Of a DNA stretch of 64,000 bases, positions 1,941-63,760 are shown piece after piece. How positions within the stretch are numbered: position 1 is the first letter of the stretch; each line of letters begins with the position of its first letter. The notes below the pieces were generated by a model. That model made no database searches. It saw only the letters and a list, made by a program, of their open reading frames with translations, and had not been told where the DNA came from. Source of the DNA: Bacteroidaceae bacterium (GTDB lineage Bacteria; Bacteroidota; Bacteroidia; Bacteroidales; Bacteroidaceae); NCBI GenBank assembly GCA_017447625.1, contig JAFSNB010000002.1, positions 31,327-95,326 on the forward strand, written 5' to 3'. The position numbers and the translations under genes are program-made.

Positions 1941-2084
1941 GGCCCCCTGCCCCCCAGAGGGGGGAGAGAAAAGAGAAAAAAAAGAGAGTTATTAAGAGAA
2001 AAAATAAACGGCCCGCATAATCGTAAATAAACTCAATTGTAAATAAATTGTAAATTGTAAATCGTAAAATCGTAAAATAAGATT
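1941..2084. repeat. composite intergenic repeat (GC palindrome plus AT-rich heptamer run)
   Basis: Directly after the proA stop lies a GC palindrome (CCCCCCAGAGGGGGG at 1950-1964), then a purine-rich stretch, then from about 2018 a quasi-tandem run of units such as TCGTAAA and TTGTAAA that ends just before argF'. The same two-part layout recurs elsewhere in the window (9630-9968, 58262-58372). No gene is seen here. Confidence 0.7.
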
Positions 2085-9968: not shown

Positions 9969-12590
9969 ATGATTAAATCATTATTATCCAATCTGCGCGC
10001 AGCAGTTCTCCCCCCTACGGGGGGAGTTAGAGAGGGGCTTGTTCTTTTTCTGCTCTTTTCTTTCTTTTGTATTGTATGTTCTGCCCAACCCCTCCGCACT
10101 GACTCCGTCATTAACTTCGACTGGCGCTTCCACGCTGGCGATGTCATTGGTGGCGAACGGCCCGAGACACCAGACGACTCATGGCGCGTGCTCTCTCTGC
10201 CCCACGATTTCCAGATAGAACAGCCTTGGGAAGTCCCCGGCGATGACGAACGGCCGGACAACAGCGACCCGGGAGCGAACCGCCGCAGCCGCCTCAGTTC
10301 ACGCGGGTTCAAGGAGATGGGCATCGGATGGTATCGCAAGACCTTCACACCTCCCGCTTCGTGGCAGGGCAGACGTATCCTCATAGACTTCGAGGGCATT
10401 ATGCTCGTTGGCGATGCCTGGCTCAACGGCCAGCCCATAGGCAAGACCGATTACGGATACCTCGGCTTCGAGGCTGACATAACGAAGATGATAAAATTCG
10501 GTCAACCGAATGTGATTGCGGTGCGGGCAGACACCCGCTATGCCAACTCGTCACGTTGGTACACGGGCGGCGGCCTCTATCGCGACGTGCATCTTGTCAC
10601 CACTCACCCCATGGTCTATTTCAACCGCCACCCCCTGAAGATTACCACCAATAATGGTCAATGGTCAATGGTCAATGGTCAATCCCTCTCCCCCCAACGG
10701 GGGGAGTCGGAGAGGGGCCTCGTATCCATCCAAGCCGACGTAACCTGTCTTGGCCCGGCTCCGAAAGACCTGACCTTCGGCATCCGTATTCTCGACCGTG
10801 AAGGGCGCGTCGTTGCGGAGAAGAATTGCTATGAGACATTCCGCGCAAACCAGCGCAGTCGCGAATACCAGCTTACTGACATCCAGATTCCCAACGCTCA
10901 TCTCTGGGATCTCGACGACCCGTATCTCTACACCGCCGAGGTGTCTGTATATAGTAAGGGTGAGGTGGCCGACTGTGTCCGGAGCACTTTCGGCGTGCGC
11001 ACCATAGAATACGGCCCCGACTTCGGCTTCAAGCTGAACGGCAAGAAAGTAATCCTCAAGGGCATAGCAAACCACCACACCCTTGGAGCGCTCGGTGCAG
11101 CCGCATATCCTCGAGCCATAGAAAAGCGTGTCAAACTGCTCAAGGACTTTGGCTTCAACCATATCCGTACCAGCCACAACCCCTATTCAGACGACCTGCT
11201 CGACCTCTGCGACAAATACGGAATCCTCGTCGTAGATGAACTATATGACAAGTGGTTAAAGCAGTTTGCCGGCGACCGCGTCTCCTGGACAGAGCTTTGG
11301 CAACATGACGTCCCTGAGTGGATTCGTCGCGACCGCAACCACCCGTGTGTGGTTATGTGGAGTCTCGGCAATGAGCTACAGACCTATTGGGCTATTCCTT
11401 ATGCAGACTGGGGCGTGACGCCTTACCGTCTGCAGAAGGCGCTGCTCCAACGCTACGACCAGACACGCCCGATCACCGTGGCTATGCATCCGCGCGGACG
11501 CAGTCAGGAGACCGACTCCCTGCCGGCCCCGCTTGTGATGGAGACCGACATCGCCGCTTATAACTATCGTTATATGTACTTCCCGGGCGACGGGCGCCGC
11601 TTCCCGTGGATGAAGTTCTACCAGAGCGAGGCCACCACAGCTGCCATGGGACCCAACTACTATGAGATGGACCTGAATAAAGTCATCGGTCTTGCCTACT
11701 GGGGAGCCATCGACTATCTGGGCGAGAGTCAGGGCTGGCCTGCCAAAGGGTGGGCTCAGGGTGTCTTCTATATAGACCTCTCCACGAAACCCAACGCCTA
11801 TCTCGCCAAGTCTATCTTCTCCGACGAGCCCGTTGTCCACATCTGCGTCCAGGAGCAGAGTCAGGACATCGAGTGGAACGGCGTGAAGCAGAAAATCCGC
11901 CGCCTCACAGACCACTGGACCCGCACCGAAGGTGAACAACTCAGCATCACCACCTACACCAACGCCGATGAGGTGGAGCTGGTCGTCAACGGCAAGAGTC
12001 TCGGCAAGAAACAGAACGAACTTTCCAACCCGAAGGTACGCAACCAGATTCGTTGGGACAAAGTCGATTATCACAAAGGCTACATAGAGGCCATCGCCCG
12101 CAGCGGCGGCAAAATCGTTGCCCGCCACCGCGTCGAGACCGCCGGTCCCGCAAAGAAACTCAGCCTACAACCCGACCTCACTTCCTCAACAGACAAAGGT
12201 CAACAGTCTAAGGTCGAAGGTCAACAGTCAACTGTCAACTCCCCCCTCCGGGGGGCAGGGGGGCCGTCAATCCCAGGGGGGCCGTCAATCCCCTGGTTAG
12301 CCGACGGTCGCGACCTCCAGCACATCGTCGTCACCGCCACCGACAGCAAAGGCCGCGTTGTGCCTTCTGCCAACACCGACATCACCTTCTCTGTTGACGG
12401 CCCGGCTGAGATTATTGCAGTCAGCAGCGGCGACCACTACAGCGACGAGCTCACCTTCACCAACCACCGCCGCCTCTACGACGGCCGCTGCCTCGTGATC
12501 CTCCGTTCCGGCCGCACCCCGGGCAAAGTGACCCTCACCGCCACCGGCGAAGGCTTCAAACCCACCCGCTTGGTGATGACCACAAAGTAG
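9969..12590 (+). CDS. secreted GH2 beta-galactosidase-like glycoside hydrolase
   Basis: Hydrolyses terminal beta-linked galactose or a related sugar from glycans, probably in the periplasm. Domains: signal-like core (24-40, ends CSAQ), GH2 sugar-binding domain (about 45-225), Ig-like domain (about 250-350), TIM barrel with acid/base Glu469 (SLGNELQ) and nucleophile Glu554 (YQSEATT), then DUF4982-like and a C-terminal Ig-like domain. Length 873. Three repeat-derived segments interrupt it: residues 13-24 (before the hydrophobic signal core, with no other ATG after it), 229-251, and about 740-776 (includes a doubled GGPSIP). Other family members recalled lack these. Exact sugar specificity is not resolvable. 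Confidence 0.88.
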   Translation: MIKSLLSNLRAAVLPPTGGVREGLVLFLLFSFFCIVCSAQPLRTDSVINFDWRFHAGDVIGGERPETPDDSWRVLSLPHDFQIEQPWEVPGDDERPDNSDPGANRRSRLSSRGFKEMGIGWYRKTFTPPASWQGRRILIDFEGIMLVGDAWLNGQPIGKTDYGYLGFEADITKMIKFGQPNVIAVRADTRYANSSRWYTGGGLYRDVHLVTTHPMVYFNRHPLKITTNNGQWSMVNGQSLSPQRGESERGLVSIQADVTCLGPAPKDLTFGIRILDREGRVVAEKNCYETFRANQRSREYQLTDIQIPNAHLWDLDDPYLYTAEVSVYSKGEVADCVRSTFGVRTIEYGPDFGFKLNGKKVILKGIANHHTLGALGAAAYPRAIEKRVKLLKDFGFNHIRTSHNPYSDDLLDLCDKYGILVVDELYDKWLKQFAGDRVSWTELWQHDVPEWIRRDRNHPCVVMWSLGNELQTYWAIPYADWGVTPYRLQKALLQRYDQTRPITVAMHPRGRSQETDSLPAPLVMETDIAAYNYRYMYFPGDGRRFPWMKFYQSEATTAAMGPNYYEMDLNKVIGLAYWGAIDYLGESQGWPAKGWAQGVFYIDLSTKPNAYLAKSIFSDEPVVHICVQEQSQDIEWNGVKQKIRRLTDHWTRTEGEQLSITTYTNADEVELVVNGKSLGKKQNELSNPKVRNQIRWDKVDYHKGYIEAIARSGGKIVARHRVETAGPAKKLSLQPDLTSSTDKGQQSKVEGQQSTVNSPLRGAGGPSIPGGPSIPWLADGRDLQHIVVTATDSKGRVVPSANTDITFSVDGPAEIIAVSSGDHYSDELTFTNHRRLYDGRCLVILRSGRTPGKVTLTATGEGFKPTRLVMTTK
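10008..10041. repeat. GC palindrome copy inside GH2 signal region
   Basis: CTCCCCCCTACGGGGGGAG followed by TTAGAGAGGGGCTTG. It encodes LPPTGGVREGL and nearly repeats the copy in tsaE (60011-60045). Confidence 0.85.
10654..10719. repeat. composite repeat (ATGGTCA heptamers plus GC palindrome) inside GH2
   Basis: About four tandem ATGGTCA units (10654-10683) run into CTCTCCCCCCAACGGGGGG (10686 onward) and AGTCGGAGAGGGGC. It encodes the low-complexity WSMVNGQSLSPQRGESERGL between the sugar-binding and Ig-like domains, and keeps the frame. Confidence 0.85.
12194..12297. repeat. composite repeat (GTCAAC units, GC palindrome, 18-bp tandem) inside GH2
   Basis: GGTCAAC/AGTCAAC-type units (12194-12240) join CCCCCCTCCGGGGGG and then an 18-bp tandem pair (unit begins CAGGGGGGCCGTC, about 12256-12291). 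The order of parts matches the intergenic copy at 22859-22924. The frame is kept. Confidence 0.8.
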
Positions 12591-22858: not shown

Positions 22859-22924
22859 ATGTCAACTTGTCAACTTGTCAACTATCAACTATCAACTGTC
22901 CACCCCCACCGGGGGCAGGGGGCA
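22859..22924. repeat. composite repeat (GTCAACT units plus GC palindrome), intergenic
   Basis: GTCAACTTGTCAACTTGTC and ATCAACT units run into CCACCCCCACCGGGGGCAGG directly beside the gpmI stop. It has the same order of parts as the in-frame copy at 12194-12297 in the GH2 gene. Confidence 0.8.
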
Positions 22925-25802: not shown

Positions 25803-27980
25803 ATGACTGAGAACGAAGAACTGCAGCCCACAATGACCCCGGAGGTCGAGGCCGCAGAAACATCAAAGGAGCAGGCTGCCCCTCAGGTAGAGGCACAGAC
25901 TGCAGAGACAACCACTGAATCAACAGTTGAAACTGAGGCTCCCGCAGCCGCAGAAGAACCCGTAATCGAGGAGGCTCCCGTAGCTGAGGCAGCTCCCGCT
26001 GAACCCGCAGCAGAGGAGGCCGCTGAAGAGCCCGCAGCTGAGGCCGCACCCGCAGAAGAGCCCGCAGCTGAGGCAGCACCCGCAGAAGAGCCTGCAGCCG
26101 CAGAAGAACCCGCAGCTGAGGCCGCACCCGCAGAAGAGCCTGCAGCTGAGGCAGCACCCGCAGAAGAACCCGCAGCTGAGGCAGCTTCCGAAGAAGAACC
26201 CGCTGCAGCCGAGACGGAGGACGCTGCCGAGGACAAAGTAATTTACGAAACCAAAGAGCAAGTGCTGGAGCGTCTGGATGCAATCCGCGAAGCCGGCGAC
26301 GGCGGCGACCGTCAGGAGCTCGACCTGCTGAAGCAGGTATTCTATAAATTCCACAAGGCCGACCAGCTGGCCGCCCGCAACGCCTTTATCGAGGCTGGAG
26401 GGAACGTGGAGGACTATCGTCCCGAACCGGATGTGCTGGAAGAGAACTTCAAGGCTGCGATGCAGACCATACGCGACCAGCGCGCCAAAATAGCAGAAGA
26501 GGCCGAGCACCAGAAGGAAGAGAATCTGGCACGCAAGCTCTCTATCATAGAACGCATCAAACAGCTCGCCACCTCACCCGAGGAGGCTAACAGCCATTTC
26601 GATGAGTTCAAGCAGTTGCAGGCTGAGTGGAAGGAAATCAAGGCCGTTCCGGCAGAGAAAGCCACCGAGGTGTGGAAGACCTTCCAGCTCTATGTGGAGC
26701 AATTCTACGACCAGCTGAAACTGCATATCGAAGCCCGTGAATACGACTTCCGCAAGAATCTCGAGGCCAAGACCCGCCTGATTGAGGCTGCTGAGCGTCT
26801 GGCCGACGAGACAGATATAATCACCGCTTTCAACAAACTCCAGGCTCTGCATGCCGACTACAAGGAAATCGGCCCCGTGGCCAAGGATCTGCGCGAAAGC
26901 ATTTGGGAGCGTTTCAAGGCTGCCAGCACCGTGATAAACAAACGTCATCAGGAACATTTCGAGGCTATCAAAGCACGCGAAGAGGCAAATCTCACCCGCA
27001 AGACGGAGTTGTGCGAGCAGGTGGAAGCGATTGATACCGCTGCCCTCACATCCTTCGCCCTGTGGGACGAGAAGACCAAGGAGGTTCTGGCTCTGCAGGC
27101 CGAGTGGAAGACCATAGGCTACGCTCCGCAGAAGATGAACCAGCGTGTGTTCGACCGCTTCCGCGTGGCCTGCGACCATTTCTTCACCGCCAAGGCTGAG
27201 TTCTTCAAGACCATCAAGGACGAGCAGTCAGAGAATCTGGAACAGAAGCGTAAGCTGGTTGAAGAGGCCGAGGCTCTGCAGGAGAGCACCGAGTGGCGCA
27301 AGACCACAGACAAGCTGATAGACCTGCAGAAGCGATGGAAGGCCATCGGCGCCGTGCCTCGCAAGTACAGCGAGCAGTTGTGGAAGCGCTTCACCGCCGC
27401 CTGTGACCATTTCTTCGAGGCCAAGCAGGCTGCAACAGCCAGCGCACGCAGCGAGGAGCAGGCCAACCTCAGCGCCAAGCGCGACATCATAGAACAACTG
27501 AAGGCTCTCGCCGAGGATGCCGCTTCTGCAACCATCGATCAGGTGCGCCAGCTCCAGCAGCAATGGAACGAGGTCGGACATGTGCCTTTCCGCGACAAGG
27601 ACAAGGTGTATGCCGCCTATCGTGAGATCACCGACCAGCTCTACAAGCAGTTCGGTCAGAGCGCTGCCCGCCGCCGTCTCGAGGGATTCCAGAAGACTAT
27701 CCGTCGCGCAGCAGACCAGGGCGGAAGCGCATTGGCACGCGAGAAGGAGCGTCTGCTCCGCATCTATGAGCAGCAGAAGGCCGAGATTCAGACCTACGAG
27801 ACGAACCTCACCTTCCTCAGCGCCAAGAGCAAGAGCGGTAACAGCCTCGTAGCTGAACTGACCAAGAAGGTCGAGAAGCTTAAGGGCGAACTCTCTCTCC
27901 TGGCCGAGAAAATCAAGGCCGTGGATGCAGAGATGCGTGCACCGAAAGAAGAGGAGCAGCCCGCCGAGACAAAGGACTGA
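25803..27980 (+). CDS. DUF349-repeat protein with acidic EPA-rich N-terminus
   Basis: 725 residues. Residues about 30-140 are a repetitive Glu/Pro/Ala stretch (AAPAEEPAAE units) with no predicted fold. From about 150 on, several roughly 75-residue helical DUF349 repeats follow, each with a W-K-x-I/V-G-x-x-P core (QAEWKEIKAVPAEK, QAEWKTIGYAPQKM, QKRWKAIGAVPRKY, QQQWNEVGHVPFRD). A coiled coil ends the protein (KKVEKLKGELSLLAEKIKAV). DUF349 proteins are cytoplasmic and of unclear role. The next gene starts 52 bases later. Confidence 0.88.
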   Translation: MTENEELQPTMTPEVEAAETSKEQAAPQVEAQTAETTTESTVETEAPAAAEEPVIEEAPVAEAAPAEPAAEEAAEEPAAEAAPAEEPAAEAAPAEEPAAAEEPAAEAAPAEEPAAEAAPAEEPAAEAASEEEPAAAETEDAAEDKVIYETKEQVLERLDAIREAGDGGDRQELDLLKQVFYKFHKADQLAARNAFIEAGGNVEDYRPEPDVLEENFKAAMQTIRDQRAKIAEEAEHQKEENLARKLSIIERIKQLATSPEEANSHFDEFKQLQAEWKEIKAVPAEKATEVWKTFQLYVEQFYDQLKLHIEAREYDFRKNLEAKTRLIEAAERLADETDIITAFNKLQALHADYKEIGPVAKDLRESIWERFKAASTVINKRHQEHFEAIKAREEANLTRKTELCEQVEAIDTAALTSFALWDEKTKEVLALQAEWKTIGYAPQKMNQRVFDRFRVACDHFFTAKAEFFKTIKDEQSENLEQKRKLVEEAEALQESTEWRKTTDKLIDLQKRWKAIGAVPRKYSEQLWKRFTAACDHFFEAKQAATASARSEEQANLSAKRDIIEQLKALAEDAASATIDQVRQLQQQWNEVGHVPFRDKDKVYAAYREITDQLYKQFGQSAARRRLEGFQKTIRRAADQGGSALAREKERLLRIYEQQKAEIQTYETNLTFLSAKSKSGNSLVAELTKKVEKLKGELSLLAEKIKAVDAEMRAPKEEEQPAETKD
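25975..26215. repeat. in-frame minisatellite encoding AEEPAAEAAP
   Basis: Units close to GCACCCGCAGAAGAGCCCGC with GCAGCTGAGGCA spacers recur across this stretch. Unit lengths are multiples of three, so copy-number change would vary protein length without a frameshift. Confidence 0.85.
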
Positions 27981-39092: not shown

Positions 39093-39911
39093 TTAAATGG
39101 CCCTTGGGAATGTTTTTAGTGCATTGTTTGATGTTATTTCGGCAACTTCGGAGACACTTACGCCATAAATCTCAGCCAACTTCTCAACGACGGCTTTGAC
39201 ATAGGCACTTTCGTTCCGTTTTCCGCGATATGGGACAGGGGCCATATATGGTGAGTCTGTCTCTACGACTATGCGGTTGAGGGGGACTGTCGAACGCAGC
39301 ACTTCGGGCAGTTTGGACTTCTTGAAGGTGACAACGCCACCAATGCCGAGCATGAAGTCTGGGAAGTCAAGCAGTTCACGTGCCTCCTCTTCGCTTCCGC
39401 TGAAGCAATGGAAAACACCTGTTAATTTACTATTTGACGATTTACTATTTAACGATTTATTATTTGGCGATTTGCTTTTTACGATTTCCACCATCTCGCG
39501 GTGTGCATCTCGTGTGTGAATTATAAGCGGCAGATTGTATTCCAATGCCCAGTCGATCTGGATGGCAAAAGCCTCCTGCTGCTCTTCGTAGAGTTCGCGA
39601 CTCCAATAGTAGTCTAATCCCACTTCTCCCACTCCGATGAATGGGTGGTTCGTGTCTTTGAGGCGTGTCTCCATCTCAGCCAAGACCTCGCGCCAGTCGT
39701 CTGCGATGTCTTCGGGGTGAAGGCCAATTGTCGGATAGCAGAATCCGGGGTAAGCACGGCACAGCTCAAGCATCGGGCTTATGGAGGCGGCGTTGATGTT
39801 TGGCAGGAATATCTTATTCACTCCTGCTTCCTTCGCGCGCGTCACCACTTCGAAGATATCCTCGCGGAACTCTTCTCCATAGATGTGGCTGTGGGTGTCT
39901 ATTATAGTCAT
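39093..39911 (-). CDS. tatD: TatD-family metal-dependent hydrolase (DNase)
   Basis: TIM-barrel metallo-hydrolase with reported 3'-5' nuclease activity. 272 residues. Seen: IDTHSHIYG (metal HxH), GEVGLDYYW, HTRDAHREM, and ETDSPYMAPVPYRGKRNES. Residues about 143-164 (KSPNNKSLNSKSSNSK) interrupt the barrel between the HTRDA strand and GVFHCFSG; E. coli TatD has only a few residues there. The DNA of that insert is the same AT-rich repeat found between genes. Start overlaps the synthase stop by 4 bases. Confidence 0.92.
   Translation of the reverse strand: MTIIDTHSHIYGEEFREDIFEVVTRAKEAGVNKIFLPNINAASISPMLELCRAYPGFCYPTIGLHPEDIADDWREVLAEMETRLKDTNHPFIGVGEVGLDYYWSRELYEEQQEAFAIQIDWALEYNLPLIIHTRDAHREMVEIVKSKSPNNKSLNSKSSNSKLTGVFHCFSGSEEEARELLDFPDFMLGIGGVVTFKKSKLPEVLRSTVPLNRIVVETDSPYMAPVPYRGKRNESAYVKAVVEKLAEIYGVSVSEVAEITSNNALKTFPRAI
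39423..39486. repeat. AT-rich repeat copy inside tatD
   Basis: TTTACTATTTGACGATTTAC and TATTTAACGATTTATTATT units, matching the intergenic TCGTAAATAGTAAAT type on the other strand. In frame, encoding Lys/Ser/Asn-rich residues. Confidence 0.85.
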
Positions 39912-58261: not shown

Positions 58262-58372
58262 GAATCCTGGCCCTCTTAATCCCCCAGAGGGGGATGTGAG
58301 GTAAATGGTAAAATTACTCAATAGTAAATAAATCGTAAATTGTAAATAGTCAAATCGTAAATTATATAGGGA
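58262..58372. repeat. composite repeat before porX
   Basis: TTAATCCCCCAGAGGGGGATG (58276-58296) joins an AT-rich run AGTAAATAAATCGTAAATTG ... GTCAAATCGTAAATT that ends at the porX start. The order is the same as after proA (1941-2084). Confidence 0.75.
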
Positions 58373-59967: not shown

Positions 59968-60429
59968 ATGGAAAAAAGAAATTCTTCTGATATAGCATCC
60001 CGCAGGCTTACTCTCCCCCCCACGGGGGGAGTCGGAGAGGGGCTTGCCGCCGCCGCCCACCAGTTTGTAGAGGCAATCGGCGAACGCCGCGTGTTTGCCT
60101 TTTATGGCAAGATGGGAGCCGGCAAGACCACCTTCATTCGCGCCGTCTGCGAGACGCTGGGTGTCACCGACCCCGTCACCTCCCCCACATTCGCCATAGT
60201 GAACGAGTACAAGAGTCCGTCTGTCGGTAGTATCTTCCACTTCGATTTCTACCGTATCAAACGTATGGAAGAAGCCTACGACATAGGCTTCGAGGAATAT
60301 CTCTATAGCGGCTCGCTCTGTCTGATTGAGTGGCCTGAGCTCGTGGAAGAACTGCTCCCTACGGACGCGGTCAATGTCACAATCGAAGTACAGGATGATG
60401 GCACGCGCATTATTTCCTTCGCTTGCTGA
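59968..60429 (+). CDS. tsaE: tRNA threonylcarbamoyladenosine synthesis ATPase TsaE
   Basis: Works with TsaB and TsaD to make t6A37 in tRNA. 153 residues: Walker A FYGKMGAGKTTFIRAV (about 47-62), SPTFAIVNEY, Walker B-like LCLIEWPEL. Residues 15-26 (LTLPPTGGVGEGL) come from a GC palindrome repeat and replace part of the normal N-terminal strand region; no other ATG lies between the repeat and the core. The comF start overlaps its end by 32 bases. Confidence 0.93.
   Translation: MEKRNSSDIASRRLTLPPTGGVGEGLAAAAHQFVEAIGERRVFAFYGKMGAGKTTFIRAVCETLGVTDPVTSPTFAIVNEYKSPSVGSIFHFDFYRIKRMEEAYDIGFEEYLYSGSLCLIEWPELVEELLPTDAVNVTIEVQDDGTRIISFAC
60011..60045. repeat. GC palindrome copy inside tsaE
   Basis: CTCTCCCCCCCACGGGGGG followed by AGTCGGAGAGGGGCTTG. 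The second part is shared with 10686-10719 exactly up to GGGGC and, with two changes, with 10008-10041 in the GH2 gene. Confidence 0.88.
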
Positions 60430-63610: not shown

Positions 63611-63760
63611 AATGCACCTTGATGTAATTGCACTTACACCTCGATGTAATTGACGGCCCCCCTTAATCCCCCCGGAGGGGGGAGAAGGGTTGACGGAAAA
63701 TCGTTCGGCATCGAACCTGCTTTCGTACAGCATCAAACCACCATTCGTACAGCATCAGAA
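63611..63760. repeat. short repeats and GC palindrome downstream of pnp
   Basis: It includes a pair CTTGATGTAATTG / CTCGATGTAATTG, a GC palindrome (CCCCCCTTAATCCCCCCGG AGGGGGG, about 63657-63682), and TTCGTACAGCATCA twice (about 63722 and 63744). No gene is seen. Confidence 0.7.

Follow-up and report, generated by a model that had tools for sequence, protein, structure and literature searches.

How does an array of short repeats followed by a palindrome come to lie in frame inside a conserved enzyme? The question is raised by a GH2 enzyme encoded in a 64,000-nt stretch of a Bacteroidaceae genome (GenBank GCA_017447625.1, contig JAFSNB010000002.1, positions 31,327 to 95,326; hereafter the window). 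An earlier reading of this DNA, made from the sequence alone, had pointed to a run of seven-base repeats joined to a palindrome between two domains of this enzyme and had compared it to an invading element. This reading of the segment proved largely right. Our analysis suggests that the palindrome probably belongs to a nuclease-linked selfish element, similar to REPINs, that tolerates translation, with the protein DUF559 acting on its own ends and repair spreading the copies.

A dispersed repeat in reading frames

A Pfam scan of the GH2 open reading frame (ORF) revealed a sugar-binding domain at residues 51-212 and a GH2 domain at residues 248-344. The 7-mer array and the hairpin repeat together form residues 229-251, between these first two domains, and the frame is kept; coordinates and Pfam thus agree with the sequence-only reading. 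The hairpin-and-tail part is a 31-nt word, CTCCCCCCAACGGGGGGAGTCGGAGAGGGGC, which contains the palindrome CCCCCCAACGGGGGG; we refer to this repeat as family-1. An alignment with homologues, which had been proposed as a check, showed that the segment is missing from all eight GH2 homologues compared (66-75% identity). Two of them (L075, L076) have short unrelated residues at the site, and in four of the six homologues viewed as DNA four codons, e.g. GGC ACC GAC AGC, replace the segment. A second internal insert of the same ORF is also missing from the homologues, where the linker varies in length. A further family-1 copy at the N-terminus of the ORF may lie upstream of the real start codon.

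The second proposed check, a whole-genome search with the palindrome, was performed in the window genome (G000; draft, 2,563,528 bases, 46 contigs, 73% complete) and in 60 relatives, 61 genomes in all. The strict family-1 pattern CTCCCC-N3-9-GGGGAGTNNGAGAGGGG was found at 41 places in the 2.56 Mb of the window genome (26 and 15 by strand), in unrelated genes, and its reversal, used as control, at none. Seven of the 60 relatives carry one to four copies each. By the pattern used, all 41 copies consist of a hairpin followed by AGT-NN-GAGAGGGG, with TA, CG, TG, CA or GG as NN. Stop-free frames of at least 200 amino acids (aa) cross 32 of the 41 copies, compared with 834 of 1000 random window positions; the repeat therefore does not avoid genes, and some of these stop-free frames may be spurious.

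Twenty-four ORFs with Pfam names hold 26 of the copies, one of these names (Bac_transf, L007) being below its cut-off. The repeat lies inside or between domains in PheT, EamA, MetH, AroC, Lpd, ClpB, AsnB, AroE, a peptidyl-arginine deiminase, an FHA protein, a GH31 enzyme and the GH2 enzyme of the window. It is close to the N-terminus in TsaE, CysS, TrmB, DUF1573, melibiase and TPR proteins, where copies may partly lie upstream of the real starts. The best solved homologues of MetH, AroC, ClpB and PheT show a gap at the insert site. Lpd had no match among solved structures at the strict limit of 1e-90, which says nothing on its insert. The peptides LPPTGGVREGL and SPPRGESERGL recur in unrelated enzymes.

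In Pfam-supported genes a hand tally, with the four inverted pairs described below excluded, gave 22 copies in sense and none in antisense orientation (binomial p 5e-7), possibly a sign of strand-specific insertion or of selection. The TsaE copy counts as sense by its Pfam-supported frame, while its longest frame runs antisense. At five loci (L014, L015, L020, L105 and L011) tandem left halves (units of 17-18 nt) and right tails (units of about 12 nt) surround the hairpins, as if they had grown from the ends of the element. The predicted RNA fold of the repeat has -22.2 kcal/mol and a z of -0.84 against shuffled sequences; fold strength follows from composition and was dropped as evidence. A known RNA family was likewise rejected as the identity of the repeat, the window scan having detected only two tRNAs.

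The linker between the homocysteine and pterin domains of MetH was compared at 17 of 24 loci. The window genome has two tandem family-1 repeats there, in frame, and G017 and G018 have other hairpins in the same linker, also in frame, so that three different inserts occupy one site. In the remaining 12 of the viewed loci, beyond these and the two described further below, no such repeat was seen by eye. A second hairpin type, family-2 (CCCTAACAGGGGAGGGG), was found at 43 places, of which 23 were read; 16 of the 23 lie in frames of at least 200 aa. All nine family-2 ORFs scanned had a Pfam match, and they include an outer membrane protein (OMP) beta-barrel, a MiaB-like radical SAM protein, OEP, a KdtA-like protein, AsnB, a GH2 enzyme and a frame joining CarA and CarB. 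The last, at L263 (contig C22 of the window genome), combines the CarA and CarB domains in 907 aa with hairpin repeats at the junction; it is possibly a fusion made by the element.

DUF559 genes between inverted hairpins

Four inverted pairs of family-1 repeats were found in pheT, clpB and asnB and at gcpE, with spacers of 39-51 nt and total spans of 100, 102, 103 and 112 bp, compared with 31 nt for the single repeat. Between gcpE and cysS, family-1 repeats stand on both sides of a DUF559 gene, with 469 nt between the outer ends of this form. In the window genome DUF559 is a continuation of the IspG frame, and the element also contains the ATG of cysS. Among the records searched, the best named match to the window genome's DUF559 is in RUG14659 (uncultured Bacteroidales; 75% identity), which also carries the gcpE-cysS element. 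In a survey of 20 of 30 gcpE-cysS loci the element was present in G000, G015 and G003, the last with a different hairpin type. G010 has what we read as a decayed remnant, the element was absent with the genes adjacent in five loci, and eleven had no cysS motif nearby.

Among the spacers, those in pheT, clpB and asnB are similar to one another, with 0-4 of 1000 shuffled sequences matching as well. Two of them, from clpB and asnB, also resemble the 3' inner end of DUF559 elements (equalled in 1-44 of 1000 shuffles), which would be expected if the pairs were deletion derivatives of such an element. The gcpE spacer showed no resemblance to the other three.

A search for DUF559 revealed 65 matches in 30 of the 61 genomes. 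We took 54 of these loci, the other 11 being ten fragments and a longer match interrupted by a stop. Three partial matches were dropped, and for the remaining 51 the 300 bp on one side of the gene were compared with the 300 bp on the other for their best ungapped inverted match, with a score of 16 as threshold. Inverted flanks reached this score at 37 of the 51 loci, from genus and order, and at none of 95 positions 800 bp away. The inverted match exceeded the direct one at 43 loci. Across the Bacteroidota, where the best 80 of 566 DUF559 loci were taken and 77 were testable, 34 of 77 loci reached the score compared with 0 of 148 controls, and at a threshold of 14 the counts were 42 of 77 and 2 of 148. 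A third control of 243 segments from other loci gave none, and all controls together 0 of 486 at score 16. The element ends share one plan, a hairpin, about two bases and a G-rich tail, mostly directed outward; one or both ends were not found at 17 of the 51 loci.

Outside the Bacteroidota, 8 of 47 plasmid records were picked by taxon before their flanks were viewed (five Cyanobacteriota, one Deinococcota, two Alphaproteobacteria). Five score at least 16, among them L331, where the direct match scores higher. Inspection by eye showed hairpins on both sides of two others and on a single side of the last; the eight loci resemble the Bacteroidota arrangement in part. On one Sphingomonas plasmid (L336, 780-1175) a hairpin-flanked DUF559 lies between two transhydrogenase subunit genes. 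DUF559 was also found in one frame with phosphoglycerate mutase, guanylate kinase and an epimerase, and inside LeuRS.

An alignment of 47 DUF559 domains showed ten invariant residues (T, E, Q, D-F, E-x-D-G, H and D), and the function of DUF559 is therefore kept. Against the Protein Data Bank the DUF559 profile matched 3hrl (endonuclease-like, 3.9e-30) and 3r3p ('Mobile intron protein', 1.9e-7); the latter is the phage enzyme I-Bth0305I. Homology and conserved acidic residues suggest a Vsr-like or homing-endonuclease-like nuclease. A DUF559 protein of Caulobacter is reported to be linked to DNA damage in the absence of a methylation mark (PMC12907096).

Hairpin type and number follow DUF559. 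Among 43 elements, DUF559 protein identity correlated with end similarity (r 0.42; 0 of 2000 permutations), and r was 0.37 for pairs below 80% identity only. Family-2 copies occur in six of the 61 genomes (18 in G028, 12 in G015, 5 in G003, 4 in G000, 3 in G017 and 1 in G032). The top three are the genomes with a DUF559 bearing family-2 ends (L151, L129, L152), their counts including these ends. Within the genus, generic hairpins are more numerous in the 20 genomes that have DUF559 than in the 17 that lack it (p 9e-5; p 0.043 when two hairpins are subtracted per DUF559 gene), with gene counts entered by hand and a short G011 fragment counted as none. The window genome has three DUF559 genes with three end types. 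By eye, the second GH2 insert resembles the ends of L134, one of these three elements other than that at gcpE-cysS.

Accompanying tandem repeats and feature positions

The 7-mer, too, exceeds chance: three units of GTCAANN gave 54 matches in the genome, grouped in 25 clusters, compared with 2 in controls. The view of 7-mer and palindrome as one element, taken in the sequence-only reading, did not stand, and the two-part architecture is mostly a coincidence of two repeats. A GC hairpin lies no more than 120 bp away from only four of the 25 clusters, and the GH2 enzyme of the window accounts for two of these four. The 7-mer array is a separate, minisatellite-like repeat growing at the same tolerant sites. 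Seventeen of the 25 clusters lie in stop-free frames of at least 200 aa and are read as VNGQWSM-type repeats; their sense bias is trivial, the antisense strand having a stop in every frame. The claim that the two-part architecture also occurs between genes is right in that a real copy lies just outside a gene (Table 1), but with an 8-mer and another hairpin type.

Three further tandem repeats were observed. The CysS of the window genome has 7-mer units (ATGTTCAATGGTCAATG...) in its C-terminal linker (L016, about 160-210). An in-frame AT-rich 15/7-mer repeat, SKSPNNKSLNSKSSNSKL, at 39425-39487 on the minus strand directly precedes VFHCFSG in ORF 39093-39911, by its sequence a TatD-like hydrolase, and is a different kind of repeat within an enzyme. 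ORF 25803-27980 holds a Pro/Ala/Glu-rich repeat of 30/60 nt at 25977-26203.

Table 1. Positions of the GH2 ORF and of hairpin-and-tail and tandem repeats in the window
Feature	Position	Strand	Details
Hairpin-and-tail of other type	1941..1966	-	
GH2 enzyme ORF	9969..12590	+	873 aa; host of inserts; Pfam scan
Family-1 repeat at GH2 N-terminus	10008..10038	+	reads LPPTGGVREGL
7-mer array AATGGTC x 4.4	10653..10683	+	in frame in GH2
Family-1 hairpin-and-tail repeat	10688..10718	+	in frame in GH2; peptide around SLSPQRGESERGL
Second internal GH2 insert	12187..12289	+	degenerate 7-mers and hairpin-and-tail of other type at 12239-12265
Copy just outside gene	22860..22923	+	TGTCAACT 8-mers and hairpin CCCCCACCGGGGGCAGGGGGC
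Hairpin-and-tail of other type	58270..58295	-	
Family-1 repeat at N-terminus of TsaE ORF (59968-60429)	60013..60043	+	
Hairpin-and-tail of other type	63655..63684	-	

Explanations and known systems

In the explanation that we prefer, the GH2 segment would be a copy of a dispersed selfish repeat of about 31 nt, a GC-rich hairpin with a G-rich tail, existing singly, in tandem or, like a REPIN, as an inverted pair with a spacer of 39-51 nt. The fuller form would be the same inverted arrangement around a DUF559 gene. The DUF559 nuclease would recognise its own hairpin ends and cut or nick there, and repair would copy the element, or derivatives without the gene, to new sites. In loops and domain linkers, frame-preserving insertions would survive as short peptides rich in Pro, Gly, Ser and Arg, and could persist because each of the 41 family-1 words is free of stops in at least four of the six frames. 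The analysis demonstrates the dispersal, the in-frame insertion, the lack of the repeat in homologues, the inverted flanks of DUF559 genes and the joint divergence of hairpin type and DUF559, and thereby the association of the two. The cutting by DUF559, the copying mechanism and the role of DUF559 rather than another enzyme as driver are what we infer.

Several observations weigh against this explanation. Neither a mobility event nor a definable target-site duplication was observed. The replacement of about four ancestral codons in GH2 obscures the insertion event itself. The flank threshold is missed by 14 of the 51 and 43 of the 77 DUF559 loci. At 7 of the 51 the direct match scores above the inverted one; L162, the family-1 element of the window genome itself, is among these seven and contains an additional internal repeat. 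The match of spacers to elements is the best of 24 comparisons, five of which were under 50 of 1000 shuffles. Shared host ancestry is not factored out of the correlation between ends and protein, and G017 has 10 generic hairpins with no DUF559 found. In MetH of G001 (L311) the frame changes across a tandem-repeat array in the linker, and this gene is broken or misassembled; in G004 (L317) the frame changes at the same linker with no repeat seen, and either real damage or assembly error accounts for the two changes. Finally, an unseen transposase is possible in a genome that is 73% complete.

The main rival is that the hairpins spread by another process and that DUF559, as a homing endonuclease, invades existing pairs by cutting those without it. 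DUF559 occupying the place of the pair spacer, the match of its profile to 3r3p and the different hairpin types of the gcpE-cysS element in different species all speak for such homing; alone, however, it leaves unexplained that hairpin number tracks DUF559 and that spacers resemble the inner end of DUF559 elements, and we consider it rather unlikely. Improbable to a greater degree is a classic system of repetitive extragenic palindromes (REPs) and REP-associated tyrosine transposases (RAYTs), in which the hairpins would be moved by a Y1 transposase, with DUF559 as a passenger. Y1 is strongly matched in 5 of the 37 genomes of the genus and in many from the order, and single REPs, inverted pairs and REPs in genes are known from such systems (PMC3733652). 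Yet the hairpin-rich genomes G000 (searched twice) and G015 gave no hit for Y1 at E 0.001, a search in which E. coli and four further controls were positive, and the hairpin is followed by AGT-NN-GAGAGGGG and not by a GTAG tag. With Y1_Tnp unmatched in G015 and in the incomplete G000, a RAYT was rejected as the mover.

An artefact of assembly or binning might be suspected from 46 contigs and 73% completeness, but the architecture was met again in independent genomes, for example as the gcpE-cysS element of RUG14659, and on plasmid records of named strains, which leaves this idea a very slim chance. We give practically no credence to an ordinary variable loop that is GC-rich or repetitive by accident: the site is indeed a domain linker in which other GH2 homologues vary in length, but the same word 41 times in unrelated genes and between genes, and its recurring peptides in unrelated enzymes, refute it.

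Beyond the single locus, and with a confidence just short of even, we propose that DUF559 (PF04480) could supply the missing mobility enzymes of widespread hairpin-and-tail REPs in Bacteroidota, Cyanobacteriota, Deinococcota and Alphaproteobacteria. This would be a second REP-nuclease system besides REP/RAYT, able to live in translated genes and to make new linkers, fusions (IspG-DUF559, the CarA-CarB frame) and start codons (CysS). In-frame palindromes are frequent in one Bacteroidales lineage, where methionine synthase and chorismate synthase are among the enzymes hit, and the candidate enzyme can be expressed and tested. Should DUF559 move the repeats, a role would be added to a family annotated as repair endonuclease, and many odd linkers in proteins of Bacteroidota would be accounted for. 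Titles and abstract openings of the open-access papers searched named no link of DUF559, COG2852 or PF04480 to such repeats and contained nothing on Vsr with palindromes and mobile elements.

Among known systems, cyanobacterial short tandemly repeated repetitive (STRR) sequences are seven-base tandem arrays scattered in the genome; the 7-mer described here differs in that 17 of its 25 clusters lie in long stop-free frames. With respect to miniature inverted-repeat transposable elements, which have terminal inverted repeats and a target-site duplication, the four pairs show inverted ends, and no duplication could be defined. Vsr-like and EDxHD homing endonucleases are alike in the profile matches to 3hrl and 3r3p. 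What differs is that the insert described here remains in frame. A self-splicing host element was not detected either, as no Rfam intron or other RNA family reached its gathering score in four loci (L016, L175, L160, L129); inteins were not searched for.

To our knowledge, in-frame palindromes in proteins are best known from Rickettsia, and we know of no enzyme that spreads them. The likeness to Rickettsia palindromic elements (RPEs) drawn by the sequence-only reading holds in principle, but the two are not the same family. RPEs are reported to be palindromic repeats that have joined many genes for conserved proteins in frame and that also occur between genes; they are 105-146 bp long, with 12-bp terminal inverted repeats (PMC2229807). 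An in-frame insertion missing from homologues was likewise found here in GH2, MetH, AroC, ClpB and PheT. The repeats differ in being 31 nt when single or 100-112 bp as pairs, in a different phylum and with a nuclease gene between them in the full form; the RPE length does not describe them, and they are set apart from RPEs by description.

A REPIN is an inverted REP pair around a short spacer. The four pairs have this structure, three of their four spacers being alike, and the short hairpins, single or in inverted pairs, are common to REPs, REPINs and the repeats described here. Most REPs are reported to lie between genes, and some are in ORFs, where grouped copies encode 20-30 aa (PMC3733652). 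In contrast to REP/RAYT systems, genes are not avoided here, neither a GTAG nor a CGTC tag is present, no Y1 transposase was detected in G000 or G015, and the gene flanked by the repeats is DUF559, a candidate partner of in-frame palindromes that is new here.

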